DNA from: Nautilus pompilius
Taxonomy: Eukaryota; Mollusca; Cephalopoda; Nautilida; Nautilidae
Reading direction: 5' to 3'
Assembly (NCBI GenBank): GCA_018389105.1
Contig: JACATO010000612.1
Location: 654,501 to 718,500, forward strand
DNA: 64,000 nucleotides
Shown piece by piece: positions 2,650-54,039 of this stretch. Below the pieces are notes generated by a model. It saw nothing but the letters and a program-made list of their open reading frames with translations. It was not told the DNA's origin and searched no databases. A program made the translations under genes and the position numbers. Numbering within the stretch: position 1 is the stretch's first letter; every line of letters begins with the position of its first letter.

Positions 2650-3228
2650 ATGGCTGATAAGCATAAGAGTGATTCACAAGGTGCTAGCAGTGCAAAGAAG
2701 CACCACACTATGTTAGAGGAGAAATTAGACAATGCTGACCATAATATCACAGGCGTAAATTTTCAGCACATCAACTGTGCATATGATCATTAAGGACAAG
2801 GTTGTATTAAGGAACATGAAATAAACATTGATTGAAAAAAGCATTCCAGTGTGATTGCTGAAATGCAAAAAAATTGTTGACAGTGTGGATTGAGGATCAA
2901 AATCAATGGTGTAGGCTGCTTAGTTTGATGGCCATTCAGGAGAATGCTAAAGCCATTATGAAGACATAAAGGCTCAGAAAGGTGAAAGTTTAGGTGAGGG
3001 TAGTTTTGTGGCAGATGATGGGTGGTTTGTTTTAAGGCTCATGCTAATTAGCATGATGTGAAAGTGAGTGGTGAAGCTGCTAGTGCTGTTGTAAAAGCAG
3101 CTGAAGAGCTTGTGAGTGGGTTTGCCAAAGCAAGTTTTTAACATAGATGAAACTGGCCTGTTTTGGAAGAAAATGCCCAACCATACATACATTGCTAATG
3201 ATAGGCTGAGTTTGTATTTGATAGCCCA
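2650..3228 (+). pseudogene. Tigger transposase, N-terminal DNA-binding half and start of DDE domain
   Basis: A Met codon at 2650 begins MADKHKSDSQGASSAKK, matching the basic start of Tigger transposases. Then follow, in shifting frames, remnants of the pogo helix-turn-helix and CENP-B-type domains, GWFxRFKAHAN-like residues and VKVSGEAASA (about 3060-3090). The block NIDETGLFWKKMP (about 3140-3180) carries the first catalytic Asp. Stops and frameshifts are frequent, so no protein is expected. The plus-strand similarity stops near 3228 and the continuation is on the other strand. Confidence 0.8.
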
Positions 3229-3766
3229 GTAATCTTTCCAGAAATCCACCAAGGACTTTCCATCCACTCCTTTGGTGGCCTGCATAGCTTGCAAGAATGT
3301 CCTTTGCAGGTAATATGCCTTGAAGTAGGCAATTACACCTTCTTCCATGGGTTGTAGGACTGAGGTGGTGTTTGGAGACATACACACCACCTTGATATCA
3401 GGGTGAAAATCTTCCAGGAATTGCAGGTGTCCAGGCATTGTCAAGGATTTTTAAAATCTTGAAGAGGATCCCTTTGGATGTGCAATATTCTTTCAATTGA
3501 AGGATAAAGCAGTGTCAAAACCAGTCCTAGAATATAGCAAAGGTTACCCAGGCCTTTGCGTTTGACATCCAAATTACAGGGAGAGACAGCCTCATGATCC
3601 CCATCAATGCCCGTGGGTTCTCCAAATGGTAGACTAACAGTGGTTTTAATTTGCAATTGCCAGCTGCATTGCCATCCAATACAAAGTCAGCCTATCCTTA
3701 GCAATGTACATATGGTCGGGCATTTTCTTCCAGAACAGGCCAGTTTCATCTATGTTAAACAGAATT
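3229..3766 (-). pseudogene. Tigger DDE catalytic block, inverted within the element
   Basis: On the minus strand, from 3766 downward, the reading is NIDETGLFWKKMPDHMYIAK, then the equivalent of LLVYHSENPRAL, then LDNAPGHLQFLEDFHPDIKV (about 3440) with the second catalytic Asp. It continues with PNTTSVLQPMEEGVIAYFKA and ends in DFWKDY near 3235. This is the catalytic core that should follow the upstream plus-strand half, but in the opposite direction. Two stretches of about 101 and 156 codons remain open here, longer than elsewhere in the element. Confidence 0.83.
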
Positions 3767-8848: not shown

Positions 8849-11590
8849 TATTTAAAAATTGTTTTCATAAAGATTAGACTTGATATTTGTGTTAAATCAG
8901 ATATTTGTAAAAGTTATAATTATTTGATTAGATATTAGAAGTCTTTTCTTTAAAAAAGAACATTTTTTATTGTTTTCTTGGAATATTTTCTCAAGGCAAG
9001 TGGTTGGGAAGGTGAGTAATTTAAATATATTTTAGTAAAGTACCATCAAGTTTTAAAAAAAAAAAAAACAAAGTGAGATTTATATTTAGTTATTTCACCT
9101 TGGGGCTTTTATATAAAGTGTAATGGCTCCATGCCTTCTTATAACTAAATAAATTATAGCTGAAGTACCTGATGCAGCACAAGAAAAAATTACTTTTATA
9201 TAAAAAAAAAAAGGTTTTATATCAATTTGAAAAACAGGAATTTTATTTTTTAAAAAAACAATCATTGAATGAATATTGAATTGATGCTAATGATACATTT
9301 CTTAACATCCTGTAAGCTGTACACTTAAATTTAACTTTGTTCCATAAGAGCCTCTTTATGGACAGTTTCTAGTTTTCCCTGGAGTGAAAATCAGAACAAA
9401 TTTTGTTTTGACCAATTCTTGATCACCATGGGAAAAAGCATGGACCATCCAAATTGAGGCTAACAAATTTCAATGATTGGCCTTGTGCTTTATTGATGGT
9501 CATAGCAAAGCTGAGTTTTATAGGGAATGAAATCAAGAGAATCCAGAAGATCTTTTTAAAATTGCATAATAGTTATGCTTTAGCTGACTTGTATAGGAAT
9601 CTGGAAAAGCACCTGACCATTATGGAACCAGTTTATAAGATGATGATAAACCTGTAGCAAATTATTAAATGAATTTTTATTCTTAGTTCTCAAAGTTATT
9701 CCATGTATAATTTCAAAGCCTGTTGTTCATGGCTTTCAAATGGTCTTCAAGGGTGACTGTTGAAAAATTGAAATCTGTGGTTGCTTCTGAGTTGAATGAG
9801 CACCGTGAAGCTGTAGTAACTATGAACCTTGATAGGTGGCCTTTCTTGGTATTTTGCGTCCAGACTCTGGTGTCTTTGGATCCAGCCTTTGATCCTGATG
9901 TGCTTTTGTTATAATTTGAGGCTGCTAGATTGCCTATTTTGAATGAGTGCAGTAAACTAAATGTAATTTATAAAGCTTTGGTAAAACAGTCTTTGGTGGC
10001 CTCAAAATGGTCTTCAAGACCAATGTGCAGTAACTTAAAAGCTAGTTTAGATTCTGAAGTACCTACACCCAAAATCTGGGGTCTCTAGATGCTACAGTTC
10101 AGCCATGAAAGAGTAACAGACAAACACTTGAAAATATGTATTAGATCAAAAAATAACATTTTAAATCTCAAGTTAAATTTCAACAACAATAAAAGAAATG
10201 ATGAGAAATAAAGAAAACAAACTTAGATGGCAGCTGCATTTAAAGATAATATTGGCATTTAATGTGATTATGCTATAAATATTAGAGTTTTATCAGATAA
10301 ACCCAGCTAACCCTATTCACACTGAACTATCCTTGATCACTTTTCAGAGACTATAAATATTACTTGAATGAACACCATTAGTTTTTAATCATCTGAGTAT
10401 GAAGTCAGTTTTTATGAATAATTACTCATTGTAAGCTGGAAAATATCAATGTTAAATAAACAATGAAAATTGTAATTGAATTCAGATCTCAGTGTTTTCA
10501 TTGTATTTTAATTTAAAAAATTGTCAAATTTCAGAAAATAGTTTTGTTTGTTGGTATATCTATTAGAGTTTTATCATGCTATGTGCTTAGAAATTTGTAA
10601 AACTTTTCTTTGAAAAACAGTGCATTTAATAATACATGCCAGCATTTTTCAACCATTAGTTATTATGATGGAGTATCATAAATCTATTAAAGATGTGCAA
10701 GATTTTTGGTGAAGAGAAAGCAGCATAATTTTAAAATACATCCACAATAGCAATTTTGACTAACAGCACTGGCAATTAATTATATTCACAACTCTGTGAA
10801 GTTTAAAACTTTTAATTTATTAATGGGAGAATTGACAATAATGTTTCAAGAAATTAAATGCTCCTGCTGCATCTGGGAGACTTTATGACTGTAGTAGTGA
10901 CATCAAAGGGAACTATTTCTGCAACAGATATATGTAACAGTTATCATTGTTAATTAAGACTGATGTTCAATGAATGATGGATCATCAAGATGATATGACA
11001 GTATAGGTTCAGGTTTTGGAAGTTTATGTACATACCTATGGTGATTTCAGGTAGACTCTGCTATATCAAGTTATAATTGGAAATATTAGTTAAGAATTTA
11101 TGTTGGAAATTGGTTTAATAACTGATACCAAAAAAAGCAGCAGTGGTCTGATTCCAAATTCTTTCTAAGGATGCAGGAAATGATATTGAGTGAGTTTCTT
11201 TGTTTAGGGAATAAAAGGAAGTTGGCTATCACAAAAGTTGCAGCTAATGAATGAAAAGAACATTAACTTGACACTGACAATTCTGGAAATAATATTAAAA
11301 AATGGATTTTTGTTACTGACTGACCTTGTTTTTCACACTCAAAATGTGTGTGCATCAATGAAAATAATCTTTGGTTAGAACAATATCATTGTGTTATTAT
11401 TGTGGTTTGTTGCTTTATCACTATAATTCCATATCCACAAGAAATTACTGTATTAAGGAGGCCCTTTCAACATCAAAACTGTGGGTAATTAGTCATACTT
11501 TAAAGATGCTATATCCCACACAACGTACACTCAATTTAAGTTATGTGACAAAATAATTTTTTCTACAGCTATAAATTAAAGCTGTTTTAT
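8849..11590. other. Long stretch with no gene recognised
   Basis: AT-rich sequence with poly-A and poly-T runs near 9052 and 9205. Two plus-strand open frames (9454-9657 and 9723-9914) lie close together and have ordinary amino-acid composition, but no motif was recognised. A fragment of an old element is possible. Confidence 0.45.
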
Positions 11591-11597
11591 ATATAGT

Positions 11598-12862
11598 ATT
11601 GAAAATAATTATGGAAACCCACATAGGATATGCACAAACAATGAGTAATTGCAACTGAGAGACGTATGTAATACATACACAATGCCTTATTACATAAAAT
11701 ACACACACAAATTAAAAAAGGTAGGTCTTTTGCTTCATGTCATGCTCCCATACAAGTTATGATTGTATGAATAGTTTATATAGTCTCAATGATGTTCAAT
11801 TCACTTTGTGTAGGCTTAGGAATCTTTGTGAGTGTTTCATCAGCCTCTTTATATTCCAGATAGTTTTCGACACAATGGCTGTAATCTTGAGGTCATTGTC
11901 ATGTTGAAGATAAATCCTTGCCTAGTGAGATGTCTTCCCGAGGGAATGGCATGATGGATGAGAACCTGCCTATATCTGTTGGCAGTTAGTATACTTTTGA
12001 TTTTATGCAAATCTCTAACACCCTTGACTAATATGCAGCCCTGCACTCACATTGATCTACCCTCATGCTTCACTCTAGCCATTATATACTACCGCTTCCA
12101 AATCTATTTTCAAACAGACTGTTGTTGATTATTGCCAAACAGTTCAAACTTTGACTCATCTGTAAAGAACACATTCTTCCAGGTTTGCTCATCCCAATTT
12201 TCATTTCTGTTGCTCATTTCAGCCTTCCTGTTTGGTTGTTGGTTGTCTCTCCTCAGAAAAAGCTTTTGGGCAGCTACACATCCATTGAGACCACTTTGCA
12301 CTAATGTTTATCTTACTGTTTTTGAATAAATGTAAATTCCTGTACTTACAGCTGGATCATTCACATCATCTATTGCACAGGGAACTTATTCTAAGGTGCT
12401 TAACATCACTTTTGCAGAGTTTGGGCTTTCTTCCTCTACTGTGTATGTTGTCAATAGTACTAGTTTCACATATCTTCCTCAGAGTCAAAGACTTTGGTTT
12501 TTATATGTGTGTCATGTGATATTTCTTTCCCAGGAGCCATAGTATTCACCAAACTACAGTGATATTACTGTCTATACTTATATTGTCTTTCTGTGGGTTT
12601 ATCATTTTCTGATTATGATTGTTTGCATGACAACTAATCACAGTGTACTGTATCAACACATGACTTTTCTGTGTGCATTTCACGTTTACACATCAGATAT
12701 AATTCTATCACATTATTTGCATTTTATACCCAGATTTTTCTTTTGTTTTCATAATTATTTCCAATATTTTATGTTGTTGTTTGACTATAATACAAGAGAA
12801 AACACATCAATAATACCTGGAAATTTTTTTTAAAACACCCACCCATAATTCTTATATTCAAT
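11598..12862 (-). mobile_element. Tc1-like transposon, decayed
   Basis: The left end TTGAAAATAATTATGGAAAC (near 11603) and the reverse complement of the right end (TTGAATATAAGAATTATGGG, near 12862) look like diverged inverted repeats. They enclose about 1.26 kb, close to the size of a Tc1 element. The interior holds the transposase described next. The exact ends are uncertain. Confidence 0.65.
11800..12530 (-). pseudogene. Tc1 transposase relic
   Basis: In order on the minus strand, with frameshifts: the linker RGRKPKLCKSDVKHLRISSL (about 12440-12380), then the end of the DNA-binding region. The first catalytic block is VFFTDESKFELFGNN (about 12175-12132). PSGRHL (about 11930) is followed by the second catalytic block DNDLKITAIVSKT (about 11900-11860), equivalent to DNDPKHTA. 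The third catalytic block (normally SPDLNPIE) is not readable. Two acidic residues survive but stops and shifts rule out a working enzyme. Confidence 0.8.
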
Positions 12863-32180: not shown

Positions 32181-34566
32181 AATCAGAGGGAAAACTTATT
32201 TAACAAGCAAACAGAAGTATGAAACAATCACTGAAACAAACATTTCAGTGGTGTCTGCTACTTTGCAGGATTCTAAAAACAGTGGTGAAGACAAACCATT
32301 ACATATACAGGTTAGTTATTGTTTCTTGTTGGTGTAATTTTATTGAGGGGCTGCCACTTGGCAAACACGAAGGTGGTGAATGTCTTGTGCTGCTCTTGTG
32401 ATTGGAAACCACCACTAGAGGATGGATGCTCTTTATTTTTTTTTTCTGTCAGCTGCTTTTCCATTGTAGCTACTACATACATTAATAAGCTGTTTTACAC
32501 TTCTCTTTTATCTACTTCCACTTCTGTATCTCAAGAGGGGGATTATTTACACTACATATCAAAATTATTTAAATATAATTTTATTTTTTTACATTAAATA
32601 AATATATACACATTATCATTAATTAGAAGTAGATAAATAAAGTAGTTTTATTTTGATTAATTTTATTTAGCCATTACTACAGTGCAAAAAATTTCAAACA
32701 TTTTACTGGTTTTACTTTAAAAAACAAAAAAAAGCACTAGTTTCAAGTTTCTGAGCTGGTTGACTTTTAAACAAAAATTTAATTTGTTTATTTTTGCTAA
32801 TAATGAAAATATCAAAACTTGTATAAACTTGCAAGAGACATTTGCAAACAGTATCAGAAACCCATGATGTAAAGATGAATAATACTAGACAGCAGGGGAA
32901 AACATGCTTTGGAATAGTGCAGTGTCATATGGTTTGCTATATTATTATGATGTCTGGGTTTGATATTTGTTTTTATTTTAACTAAGACTACTGTTTCATG
33001 CTTGGAAACAATTAGAAATATAACAACAAAATATAATACAAAAAATATTGAGCAGTTAACGTTTTGTTTGTTTGTTTGCTTGTTTTAATATAGAAAAGAA
33101 TTATCCTTCATCTGTTTTGTTAATTTTAAAATCATTTATTTGTTTTGAAAGTTAGGGACAAAGAATAATTCCTCAAGGGCATGTTGGCTTCATTAGAACA
33201 TAGCATTGTTTTGACACATAGATCAGGCACCATGGAAACTGAGCAAACACTGGAGCTAGGTTTCTAATGAGTCCAGCCTTAGTTACCTACCCTCTAGGAC
33301 AGTAACAGTGTTCTGAACTTCCAGGGACACTGATTATATACAATATGTCAGCATTTTAATCACAAAAATGGTTATCCTTAACACTACTTTTGCTGACAGA
33401 TGCCAGTTTTGTTCTTTTTCCTTTGATATATTAAATGGATGTTAGTATTTATGTGATGAAGATGGGCAACTGGTCGAAGATTTTCTGCAAAGCCATTAAA
33501 ATGTTCCCTAAAACCCAACAACATAATTGTTTTCTTCATGCCAAATACCAGCTTATGAACAGAAAATTGTTGTCTGTAGCTGATAGTGGCTCTCTCTCTC
33601 TCTCTCTCATCTCTCTCTCGCGCTCTCTCTCTCTCCTCTCGTGTGTGTGTGTGTGTGTGGAATATTCCTTTAATGACACTTTTTCTTCTTACTCAATATC
33701 ATTATGATTGCACTAATCCAGCTGCATATAATTAGAATGTCTGTATTACATGTAGCAGTTTCCAATAGCCTCGTTTAATGAGATATTTTACAACTGCATC
33801 TGTACACACTGTTTTCAGATCATGAATTCTGTAACACTTTCTTTTACAACAAAAATCTAAATTATACCAGTGATATAAGTGATTAGTTTTTTTAGAAACC
33901 AAAAGTCAGATAAACGTAGGATATTTCGTTTTCTCATACTTTTCTTAACCTTAAATTAACTCTCATTTTGTTGACCGAGAATCATCAGCACAGACTTAAT
34001 CACACATTCAAAGCATCTCCATCAGAGAAGAGAAATGTCTACTAAAATTCATCATTGATTTTCCTCCAAGAGCAAACGTTCCTAGATTCCAGCCAAATGT
34101 GAATCTATCGATCATATAGTGGTGGCAGATTTTGGTAAACAAACCTTGGTAACTTGATAATTTCACATGGTCGCGTTCCATTTAAAACTAATTTATTTTA
34201 AATAATAATCAGAGCAGATAATAACTTCAGATTATTATAAAATTAATGCTCTAAAAGGGTACATGTGTGCGGTCTTTAAAGAAGCTACAACATTGATGAT
34301 CTGTCATATAGTATTACGACTTAAATTTCTATCACTAAATTATTAATCTCTTAAATAATAATTAGATTATCTACTATTCAGCTTTTTTTTTGCTGAAAAA
34401 CAGTTTAAGATTAATGCCAAGTAGGCAGTCTGCAATTGATAGATGATATGATCAGTATTAAAACTACGGAGCATTATAAAGTTTAAGTATCCCTAATTAT
34501 GTTTCCTCTTAACTTGTGAGTATCATGGACATTGAAATATTTTTAGAAGTTCTTTTTTAACCATTA
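32181..34566. other. Stretch with no gene recognised
   Basis: AT-rich with a compound microsatellite. Sequence at 33970-34160 is more balanced and may be regulatory. Open frames at 32219-32597 and 33435-33707 are not supported; the latter runs through the CT/GT tract. Confidence 0.45.
33590..33659. repeat. (CT)n-(GT)n compound microsatellite
   Basis: CT repeats with short interruptions (CATC, CGCG, CTCG) followed by about nine GT units. Confidence 0.97.
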
Positions 34567-36830
34567 CACTGGTCAACAAAAAAAATTTTTTTCTGCATCT
34601 CTTAAACACCTGGTAATAACTAAGAGTGATGATCACAAATATAACAATGGTTTAGCTCTGTCGGGTCATGATTTTGAGATAAATGGTTCTAGTACCAAGA
34701 ATATTTTGCTTCTATATCCAAAACTTAATTTATAGTATTTGCTTATTCATAAATTAAAATTAAAACAAATTAAAGCTTGTAACTTTTATTTCAGAAAGGT
34801 TTTAAAAATTATCAATTCAATAATAATCATGTTTTGCATGCCCAGAAATGGGATTTATTTGCTCTTCATTTAAAATCATCACTTAATGTTTCTCTTTCTG
34901 AGCATCCAGCAGAAGTCTGCCATCATTTTTGGATCCCATTTTCCTTTAAAGTTTTTTTATATTTTTGATTTGTCTTGGTGTAACCTCTCACCATGTTCAT
35001 CAGAAACATCTCCAAGATCTTCAGGAAAAAAAAATCGAGGTGACTGTCCAAAAAATGAATTTTTAGAGACATTCATGCTCCCAGGTCTTTAGAAGCATTC
35101 AAAAGTTCCTTAATGATTTGCCTATAGTTTTTGGACTTATTATTGCCCTGAAATTTCTGGAATACGCTCTTGAATGAATTCCAGGCTTGTAATTCCTTTC
35201 CTTCAAGATGGTTCAAAAATACTTCTTCATTGAGGAGAGTTCTTATTTGAGGTTTGACATCAGAGATGTTAGGAAACTTCTCACCAAGATATTTAAATCC
35301 ACTTCCATCCTTGTTTAGGACCTTAATGAAGTTCTTCATAAGACCGAGCTTTATGTGGAAGGGTGGTAACAATACATCTTTAGGATCAACTAATCACTGA
35401 TACTTCACACTTTCCTGGTCGAGGAGACTGGTCTTTCTTTACACAATGTTCCTGGGTAACCTTGCTATCCCACAGGCAAAGAAAGCAGCAATACTTTGTA
35501 AATCCACTTTGCATTCCAGTGAGAAGACCGATGACTTTTAGGTCTCCACAGATTTTCCATTTGTATCTTTCATATTCAATGGCATTAAGAAGAATTACCA
35601 TATTTTCATATGTTTCTTTTAGATGAAATGAATGACCAATAGGAATGCTTGGGTATTCATTTCCATTATGTAGAAGTACCACCTTTAAGCTTTGCTTTGA
35701 CGAGTCGATAAAAAGACACCATCGTTTTAATTATTTTCCATTTCAAAGAATATAAATAAACCTTCGATGCCACAACAGAAACATAGTTATTTACAGTTGT
35801 AAAATAACTTGCTTGGTTTGAGCTTCTTTTTTGAAACGATGTTATAAATACATCTGAAGTCACCAAATTTTGTTGTTTAATTCTTGAAGCTAGAAGCTCA
35901 GACCAAGATTTGAATAGGTACAAGTCCATTACCAAGTCATTTAAATCTTCCTGTGTAATAATATGCAGACTGCTTTCACTACGTCGAAATTCCACATCAG
36001 GTTTGTCTGCATGTGACTCATAGTCAGAAGAAAAATTCAGCACCTTTTTGTCCTTTGTTGGCATTGGAACTGGAAGCCCATCACTGTGAAGTACTGGCAT
36101 AATATCTGATTCCACCTCAGGATAAGCAATTTTATGCCTGTTTTTTTTTTTTTGTTTTTTTTTAAGTGAACCCAGCTATTTTGGTCTAGCAAAAGTAACA
36201 GTCATCAAAATGATTTTTCTGCTCCCACTAAACCATTGGCACTGTGAATGGTAGGCTTTTTTGCCTACAATTTAACTAGTCCCTTAGTTGGTGGCAAAGC
36301 AAACGTGTGGCACCAAGCTCTTTTCCTGATCTCCGCACCCAAAGTAGTGAAAGTCAGCTGTTTTTATAATTGGGTTAATGTTTCTTTGCTGAAAAGGTGA
36401 CGTGAAAAGGCTGCAGATATTATAGGAAGAGTCTACATCATTGATAGCCTCGAGCAGCCATTATTTTGAAATAAAATATCACGTAACATAGTGGATAGTT
36501 AATTCCAGAATATTCCTATATGATCTGAAACAAAGAAAACAGGTGAAAATCAGTCGCAATTTGAATATAAATTTGAAAATACTATTTCATATTTATTATT
36601 AAGTAAATTATGATAAATATTCAGAATTATGAATACAGGTAAATATAATTTGAAGATTTTTTCACCGTAGACTCAATATACTGATCATTATTCCGGTAAA
36701 TGAGTCAATTTATGTGTATAAAAATCTAGACCTGATATACAAAAATTGAGTTGATTTTCGGAATAAGCACCATCATATTAGCAAAGTGCAGCCATACTTT
36801 AGTTTGATGCTAAAACATTGTTAACAAGTG
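34567..36830 (-). mobile_element. DNA transposon of an uncharacterised animal family, complete-looking
   Basis: The left end CACTGGTCAACAA (34567) and the reverse complement of the right end, CACTTGTTAACAA (36818-36830), are inverted repeats with 11 of 13 matches. TTA lies immediately outside both ends (34564-34566 and 36831-36833), consistent with a 3-bp target duplication. The 2264-bp interval holds one decayed gene on the minus strand (34880-36400) with AT-rich subterminal regions. The protein belongs to a family I remember as many near-identical 'hypothetical proteins' in cnidarians, insects and molluscs. I cannot place it in a named superfamily. TTA duplications would recall PIF/Harbinger or Sola-like elements, but no such protein motif is visible. 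Confidence 0.66.
34840..36400 (-). pseudogene. Decayed gene of the widespread uncharacterised 'LPPFHIKLGLMKNF' protein family
   Basis: Minus-strand blocks in order: SLPFTVPMV (about 36275), NHFDDCYFC (about 36215, a CxxC pair) and VESDIMPVLHSDGLPVP (about 36110). Then LNDLVMDLYLFKSWSELLAS (about 35945-35880), VVLLHNGNEYPSIPIGHSFH (about 35685-35620) and WKICGDLKVIGLLTG (about 35560-35515). Then KYCCFLCLWDSK (about 35495-35460, second CxxC), LPPFHIKLGLMKNFIKVL (about 35370-35320), PQIRTLLNEEVFL, LQAWNSFKSVFQKF, and FPEDLGDVSDEHGERLHQD (about 35035-34980). It ends with KWDPKMMADFCWML (about 34930-34890). The order matches the family throughout. Stops and frameshifts split it into at least four open pieces (149, 98 and 99 codons plus the tail). 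The paired cysteines suggest zinc binding. The biochemical activity is unknown to me; a transposase role is inferred from the flanking repeats. Confidence 0.78.
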
Positions 36831-36836
36831 TTATTA

Positions 36837-37070
36837 TACCACCACCACCTTGGATGCATTTGCACTCCACTACTTTTCAAAGCTATATTACTTAAAACAG
36901 GTTGAGCTGTATGGCCTGCCTTATCAATATAGTCCTTGGTAATATCAAAGCAAACCCTTGTTTTGTACTACAGTTGTGTTAGCTAAATATAACTCAATAC
37001 AAATACTAGTGTTTCTGGACTAAGGTGGCATAACTAAGGTAAAAATTGACATGGTGTACAGAGGGTTAAA
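36837..37070. repeat. Partial copy of the TIR element at 44.3-44.9 kb
   Basis: ACCTTGGATGCATTTGCACTCC, continuing CACTACTTTTCAAAG and ATATTACT, matches the reverse complement of the 44905 end (GGGGTGCATTTGCATCTCAC, CACTACCCTTCAAAT, GTATTACT). The homology starts within ten bases of the right end of the transposon at 34567-36830, so that element lies directly against it. How far it extends toward 37070 is uncertain. Confidence 0.55.
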
Positions 37071-37559
37071 AGTTTTGTACTTGGCTTGGAAAGTCTTTTA
37101 TAATGAAATAGGTTAGACTGCATTTTGCTGTAATTCACTGATTAATTTATTTTGCTCATGGTTTTTAATGATCAGTAGTTGGTTTTTGAGATAAATTAGG
37201 TAAATATCGGTCTGGTTTTGGTCACTAAAAGATGAGAAAACATTTAGTTCCTTGTGAGCTATTTGTTAAGAGAAATTATTCTATTATTACTGTTAAATGA
37301 CGAAAACACAAATTTGGATTGTTGTTCTGTTGTGACATATTGGATTGCAGCTAGCAAGCTACTGTTTGTGCAAAATTATAGAAGAGAAGAAAAGAAAACA
37401 GTAAACACATTTTAGCTGGCTTGTAGGAAAATTTGGTGCAGACTGTTACAAATTATCATATTTTGTAGTGAACACCATTAACTACACATTTGTGTACATC
37501 CTGATTGGTTGTGGTTTTTAATAATACATCTTGAGGATATATATATATATAGACAAATC
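37071..37559. other. Gap with no gene recognised
   Basis: AT-rich sequence ending in a short (AT)n run at 37539-37550. Confidence 0.5.
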
Positions 37560-37810
37560 TGGTGAAGGAGGCATACAGCCAGAGTTATTCTTTAGACAGT
37601 GTATCTGTCCAAGCACTTCTGACTTTGGCAGAGAAACCCTGCTATAACTCTTCATTTTTAGATGTGAGCAGAAAAACAAGAGTGCCCGGAGGAAAGTCAC
37701 ATGACTAGATCTGGAAGTCAGGGAAGTTCTTAAACAGTGCCAGTCAGCCCCCTGAGAAGAGGGGGGGGGATTTAAATCTTTACTTATGTCTGCCATAACA
37801 TCCCACACAA
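37560..37810 (-). repeat. SINE-like repeat, related to 19.15-19.44 kb
   Basis: On the minus strand the segment GTCATGTGACTTTCCTCC, then TTTTTCTGCTCACATCTAAA and AATGAAGAG, matches the body of the SINE at 19.3 kb. The sequence in the other direction (GATGTGAGCAGAAAAACAAG, GTGCCCGGAGGAAA) resembles the 'gtgggaggaaa...cccggaggaaa' repeats common in fish genomes. A G-run at 37762-37770 lies in the tail. The tRNA-like head is not evident here. Confidence 0.5.
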
Positions 37811-38288
37811 AAAGAACAGTGGTGGTGTTGCTTTTTCCTCTCTATCAGATATTTTTTTTAGATTTTCTGCTCTTCAATGCCTCTTCCATTGCTTCTCCTG
37901 CAGCAGTAAAAATAATACCAAAAAAAATAATAAAGAAAGATTGGTAAAACATTTTCCATTTTGTTTTGTTCCATGGAATCTTTAAAGAAGTTTGTGCATT
38001 AATCTATGTGCCATAGGACATAAGCAATGAGGAAAGAAAAACTTTTTCTTTTTCTACAACCCTAACAAATTATTTATCCTATTGTCTGTCCTGCTCTTTC
38101 TGCTTTTATTGATACATTTGATGAAAAACAGTCACTGGAAAAGAAAAGAAAATTACTGAAATATGTAATATCTAATATGGAATAGAAATAAAGAAAATAA
38201 TTTTAAAATTGTCACTCTGATTAGCTTCTCTTTTTCAGAAAATTTCTTTATAATATGGCAGATACATCATTTAGTTTTCTTGTTCTTT

Positions 38289-52600: not shown

Positions 52601-54039
52601 TACTTTGTCTCAATAAATTAGAATATTGTGTAAGAGTTCATTTTTTTCCATAATTTAATTCAAACAGTGAAACTTTCATATATTCTAGATTCATTATGCA
52701 TAAAGTGAAATATTTCAAGCCTTTTTGTTTTAATTTTGATGATTACAGTTTACAGCTCATGAAAATCAAAAATCCACTATCTCAAAATATTAGAATATTT
52801 CATAAGATCAATAAAAAAAATGGATTTATAATATATAAATGTCGAAATTCTGAAAAGTATTTATGCACTCAATACTTGGTCAGGGCTCCTTTTGCACAAA
52901 TCACTGCATGAATTCGGCGTGGCATAGAAGCGATCAGCCTGTGGCACTGCTGAGGTGTTATGGAAGCCCAGGTTGCTTTGATAGTGTCCTTCAGCTGGTC
53001 TGTATTGTTGGGTCTGGTGTCTCTTATCTTCCTCTTGACAGTACCCCATAGATTCTCTAAGGTGAATTTGCTGGCCAATCAAGCACAGTAATACCATGGT
53101 CAGAAAACCAGTTAAGTCTTGCTGGAAAAGGAAATCAGCATCTCCATAAAGCTTGTCAGTAGACGGAAGCATAAAGTGCTCCAAAATCTCCTGGTAGATG
53201 GCTACATTGACTTTTGACTTGATAAAATACAGTGGACCAACACCAACAGATGACATGGCATCCCAAATCATCACTGCCTGTGGAAACTTCACACTGGACT
53301 TCAAGCAACTTGGATTCTGTGCCTCTGCACTCTTCCTTCAGACTGTGGGACCTTTATTTTCTCCTTAGCCCAGGTAAGACGCTTCTGACGTTGTCTCTTG
53401 TTCAGGAGTAGCTTGACACTAGGAATGCGACACTTGTAGCCCATTTCCTGGACACGTCCGTGCATGGTGGCTCTTGATGCACTGACTCCAACCTCAGTCC
53501 ACTCCTTGTGAAGCTCCCCCAAGTTCTTGAATCGGCTTTGCTTGACAATCCTCTCAAGGCTGCGGTCATCCCTCTTGCTTGTGCACCTTTTCCTACCACA
53601 CTTTTCCCTTCCAGTCAACTTTCCATGAATATGCTTTGATACAGCACTCTACGAACAGCCAGCCCTTTCAGCAATGACCTTCTGTGGCTTACCCTCCTTG
53701 TGGAGGGTGTCAATGAGTCTTCTGGGCAACTGTCAAGTCAGCAATCTTCCCCATGATTGTGGTTGTGTACTGAACCAGACTGCGAGATTTGTGGTATTTA
53801 TACTGCATAAATAGTGATTTACTCCTACTCGAAATGGAATATTCTAATATTTTGAGATACGTTTTTTTTTCTGTTTTTCAGCTGAAGGCCATAATTATCA
53901 AAATTAAAATTAAAAAATGCTTGAAACATTTTAGTTTACATGTAATGAGTCTAGAATATATACAATTTTCACTTTCTTAAATAACTGACAAAAAATATTG
54001 AACTCTTCCACGATATTCTAATATTTTGATATGTACCTG

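Follow-up and report, generated by a model that had tools for sequence, protein, structure and literature searches.

The window analyzed here is a 64,000-nucleotide stretch of the Nautilus pompilius genome (contig JACATO010000612.1, positions 654,501 to 718,500, forward strand; coordinates below are those of the window). At 34567–36830 it contains a unit bounded by 13-bp inverted ends, read directly, which agree with each other at 11 of 13 bases; the left end starts with CACTG and the right one with CACTT. Both ends had been recognized in the initial annotation, as had the TTA triplet on either side, and all of them are present (Table 1). The unit had also been described as complete-looking, with five peptide blocks keeping their order in one minus-strand gene. 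All five blocks do occur in that order, but they occupy two minus-strand frames, and further conserved pieces occupy the third. Since its reading frame shifts six times or more and runs into five or more in-frame stops (hand count on the translation), the gene is incomplete, though the ends are complete. The window copy is dead; its lineage is a minor and older one. Within the 64-kb window, the end motif has 25 matches at ≤3 mismatches against 24.9 expected, which is the chance level; the significance of the ends comes from other copies.

Copies were collected from the 727.6-Mb assembly containing the window. With 114 residues as query, 3,627 candidates were retrieved; 150 of them were scored, and 70 of those 150 were read as loci. 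Both ends were present in 65 of the 70 loci (≤3 mismatches to CACTGGTCAACAA), whereas five (L003, L012, L016, L036, and L060) had one end only. At ≤2 mismatches, both ends were in place in 63/70 loci, compared with 0/70 for each of 40 permuted motifs. The link proposed in the initial annotation between the ends, the protein family and a cut-and-paste element is borne out by these same-genome loci. Element length is 2.30–2.42 kb in 52 of the 65 elements with both ends (full range 1,775–2,736 bp), and the consensus ends derived from 51 oriented elements agree over exactly 13 bases and, in this young family, start with CACTG. The exact 16-mer TWACACTGGTCAACAA, comprising the end plus TWA, occurs 1,788 times genome-wide (903 + 885), and the reversed control 0 times. 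The copies are scattered and near-identical: for each of the 65 elements the best match among the others shows approximately 94–99% identity over alignments that often span only part of the element, the exception being L001/L002, which are 91% alike. A frame of at least 540 amino acids survives in four of the 65 (554 amino acids in three, 617 in one), and the predicted catalytic and zinc residues are retained in all four. The window copy and the C99 copy, compared over 34560–38015 and L071:3038–6539, have about 1.2 kb of 5′ flank in common, which is roughly 98% alike (mismatches only); the element itself is 91% alike, the opposite flanks differ, and homology ends at the 3′ end of the element, identity dropping from the 5′ flank toward that end. 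Contigs C2019 and C2314 carry two copies each, about 26.5 kb apart and scoring identically, a sign that haplotypes may have been left uncollapsed in the assembly.

When the flanks of the collected copies were aligned, identical triplets were found in 47 of the 65 elements (TTA 24, TAA 21, TCA 1, GTA 1), TTA or TAA thus accounting for 45; in 2,000 shuffled pairings the count averaged 25.5 and never exceeded 37. Among the 47, the preceding base is A in 45 and the following base is T in 45, i.e., the targets are of the form A-TWA-T. As identical flanking 4-mers occur in 0/65 elements and identical 5-mers in 1/65, the target duplication is of 3 bp. It weighs against this interpretation that identical triplets are lacking in 18 of the 65 elements, eight of these having TTA on one side and TAA on the other, a mismatch that mutation or recombination between copies could produce. 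A few of the loci are not independent, because L019/L020 have both flanks in common and L001/L002 one flank.

Signs of movement were also obtained. Among the first 100 listed of the 1,788 TWACACTGGTCAACAA ends, 20 close end pairs were counted by hand; one corresponds to L037, already in the sample, and 16 others were read, 13 of which show matched TWA triplets. Eight of the ten copies of 1.30–1.37 kb have one deletion junction in common, which joins position 344 to position 1361 of the L043 element; this deletion derivative has therefore been amplified, presumably in trans. One paralogous empty site, the sole one in the DNA examined, lies in the window itself and is 83% alike to the joined flanks of L081, one of the deletion-derivative copies; its triplet is CAA, compared with TAA in L081. 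Junction-spanning matches for L027 and L051 were excluded as empty sites, each of them lying inside its own locus. Both the deletion derivatives and this empty site are consistent with movement by cut-and-paste and with a duplication of 3 bp.

The read-through of the window gene pieces was used as query in a protein search; of 4,724 candidates, 1,230 proved to be relatives at E ≤ 0.001. The 120 top-ranking ones are mostly 550–570 amino acids long; the organisms named among them are Mythimna loreyi, Oratosquilla oratoria, Scirpophaga incertulas, Pyrocoelia pectoralis, and Helobdella robusta, whose proteins carry only the database names "hypothetical" or "uncharacterized." An alignment of 43 proteins (A1) was built, residue numbers following protein P0001. 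Structure prediction, which had been proposed as a check, yields an RNase H-like DDE core whose best fold match is RAG1, the enzyme that rearranges antibody genes and of which Chapaev3 transposases are distant kin. According to this model, the product of an intact copy is a single protein, about 555 amino acids long, with an N-terminal zinc domain followed by a RAG1/Transib-like RNase H core; this core includes a helical insertion as well as a C(2)C/H(4)H zinc site. L381, which precedes the LH-motif histidine, is invariant in the family alignment. Of the two glutamates of the VSDEHGER block, E512 is preferred over E509 as the predicted catalytic residue, by eye against the letters of RAG1. Sequence comparisons gave no such match: an hmmsearch of A1 against PDB sequences returned only two unrelated chains (E 0.3 or above), and hhalign of the family with a piece of mouse RAG1 gave none. 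No Pfam family matched at E < 0.001 among the best 120 relatives (the 43 of A1 and the other 77), nor did NCBIfam match any of four proteins searched. Pattern scans, which detect only DNA matching a few peptide patterns, confirmed no relative among viral contigs or among prokaryotes, each bacterial or archaeal species being represented by a single genome; 5 stretches matched in one scan and 44 in another, 0 of which encoded a relative, and two further scans were negative. Neither a typical family peptide nor the end sequence was found in a literature text search.

Filed by its features, the window unit is a decayed Chapaev3-type transposon, a member of the CMC superfamily (probability roughly 0.92). 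The mobile element is real and its kind is already known: in the features tested, the family that had been taken as uncharacterised fits the Chapaev3 group as portrayed in passages of PMC4079192 and PMC4411706. Those of PMC4079192 attribute to Chapaev3 termini of the CAC..GTG type, insertion between A and T with duplication of TWA, and the transposase motifs C(2)C, LH, and H(4)H; they mention a member of 2,289 bp with a 556-amino-acid transposase, and a single exon in most genes outside Merrow and Garfield. In a passage of PMC4411706, Chapaev and Chapaev3 are treated as clades of the Transib superfamily. The present family has the same termini (5′-CAC/GTG-3′ in 65/70 loci, together with the 1,788 exact ends), the same duplication (45 TWA among the 47 identical triplets of 65, and one empty site) and the same A/T context (45/47 on each side). 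The three motifs are present in the family, the window copy itself having FH for LH, and the DDE residues are conserved within the predicted RNase H-like core, catalysis being predicted. Likeness to named Chapaev3 members was judged from these features.

Other assignments were weighed against Chapaev3. Elements of EnSpm/CACTA, a sister group within CMC, start with CACTA, whereas the young family and the left end of the window copy have CACTG, and the right end of that copy has CACTT. Chapaev3 values are also found for element length, for the TWA duplication set between A and T and for the single-frame transposase of about 555 amino acids. We hold an EnSpm/CACTA element to be very unlikely, even if passages of PMC12730594 likewise ascribe to EnSpm ends of the CAC..GTG type, duplications of 3 bp, and both C(2)C and H(3-4)H motifs. 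The missing Pfam match and the uninformative database names of the relatives would be compatible with a new superfamily; however, the tested features coincide with published Chapaev3 ones and the predicted fold is RAG1-like, and we give this option even less credit. Least probable of all is a host gene family or domesticated transposase with ends present by chance. Some relatives are entered in databases as ordinary predicted genes, but for this genome the option is refuted by the paired ends of 65/70 loci, the duplicated targets, the deletion derivatives and the dispersal of near-identical copies. Transib elements duplicate 5 bp of target, a length at which only 1/65 elements have identical flanks. 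PIF/Harbinger elements, with their TWA duplications, were considered on account of the triplet and set aside, the best fold match being RAG1; they are missing from the structure lists, which is not proof.

For the Chapaev3-type element, a transposase dimer would bind the 13-bp ends, and DDE chemistry involving D260, D314, and E512 would cut them. By analogy with RAG1 and Transib, a hairpin would probably be formed on the flanking DNA, and the element would then be joined to a TWA target (A-TWA-T) with a 3-bp stagger.

With regard to the N-terminus, the alignment shows it to be Cys-rich in the family and the domain model is ZAD-like; weak RAG1_imp_bd matches appeared in 4/77 relatives (best E 0.17). 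The N-terminal zinc domain possibly resembles the ZAD found in transcription factors of arthropods; taken singly, every line of evidence is weak. A passage of PMC4411706 describes the N-terminal Chapa zinc domain of Chapaev3 as common to the RAG1 N-terminus. That ZAD and this domain (and thereby a portion of the N-terminus of RAG1) are the same domain, the first domain of arthropod ZAD factors deriving from a RAG-related transposase, is a tentative and rather doubtful proposal. If the resemblance were homology, it would suggest a source for the first domain of a large arthropod regulator family.

Table 1. Features of the transposon copy and of the related empty site in the window; residue numbers as in P0001.
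Feature	Position	Strand	Basis or remark
Paralogous empty site for copy L081, one triplet, no element	11588–11677	+	Joined flanks, gapless 75/90 match
Target duplication TTA, left side	34564–34566		Read directly
Terminal inverted repeat CACTGGTCAACAA, 13 bp	34567–34579	+	3′ end of the gene's strand; present in 65/70 loci
Broken transposase gene, three-frame pieces with in-frame stops	34888–36460	-	Translations, relatives
Glu pair E509, E512 of VSDEHGER	34987–34998	-	Both 43/43 in A1
H(4)H zinc pair H490, H495 (predicted)	35040–35057	-	43/43 in A1 each
LH-motif His, H382	35355–35357	-	43/43 in A1; FH in window copy, LH in family
C(2)C zinc pair C333, C336 (predicted), block CCFLC	35476–35487	-	C333 42/43, C336 43/43 in A1
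Predicted catalytic Asp, second: D314, block CGDLK	35542–35544	-	43/43 in A1
Predicted catalytic Asp, first: D260, block LFIDSS	35704–35706	-	Codon checked; 43/43 in A1
Terminal inverted repeat CACTTGTTAACAA (reverse complement of right end), 13 bp	36818–36830	-	5′ end of the gene's strand
Target duplication TTA, right side	36831–36833		Read directly

Other repeats were observed in the window and the genome. A DDE_1 (pogo/Tigger-type) transposase remnant lies at 2974–3450 (minus strand, Pfam E 1.2e-08) and a Tc3-type transposase helix-turn-helix remnant at 53301–53648 (minus strand, PF01498 E 1.7e-12), the adjoining frame 52861–53337 resembling its continuation by eye, without a Pfam match. 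At 528–1012, a 246-bp unit is present in two tandem copies with 98% matches. The COX1 family gave 117 matches over many contigs of the same genome, most with TGA and other stops, and these look as nuclear copies of mitochondrial DNA would. The best match of one COX1-like stretch (L072), also a named one, is in Octopus vulgaris (90% over 91% of the query), which makes a cephalopod host likely; this stretch may itself be nuclear.

A family called uncharacterised in databases and lacking a clear Pfam model now has an identity, ends, a target rule and a predicted fold, and the structure model supports the relationship already published between CMC transposases and RAG1. As far as the passages of PMC4079192 go, it is like Chapaev3 elements such as Garfield of Bombyx in its CAC..GTG ends and its TWA duplication between A and T, as well as in size (about 2.3 kb, about 555 amino acids), C(2)C/LH/H(4)H motifs and non-autonomous derivatives; the Garfield and Merrow genes are given there with two exons, whereas the present family has one open reading frame, as most other Chapaev3. 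With EnSpm/CACTA, as outlined in part of PMC12730594, it has CAC..GTG ends, the 3-bp duplication and zinc motifs in common, differing in its CACTG start and in its Chapaev3-like target rule and size. The ZAD (zf-AD) belongs to arthropod zinc-finger transcription factors, whereas the present domain sits on a transposase, no single line of evidence being significant. RAG1, Transib and RAG-like transposases show about 10–15% sequence identity to the family, with no sequence-level match found, and they duplicate 5 bp of target rather than the 3 bp of the present family.
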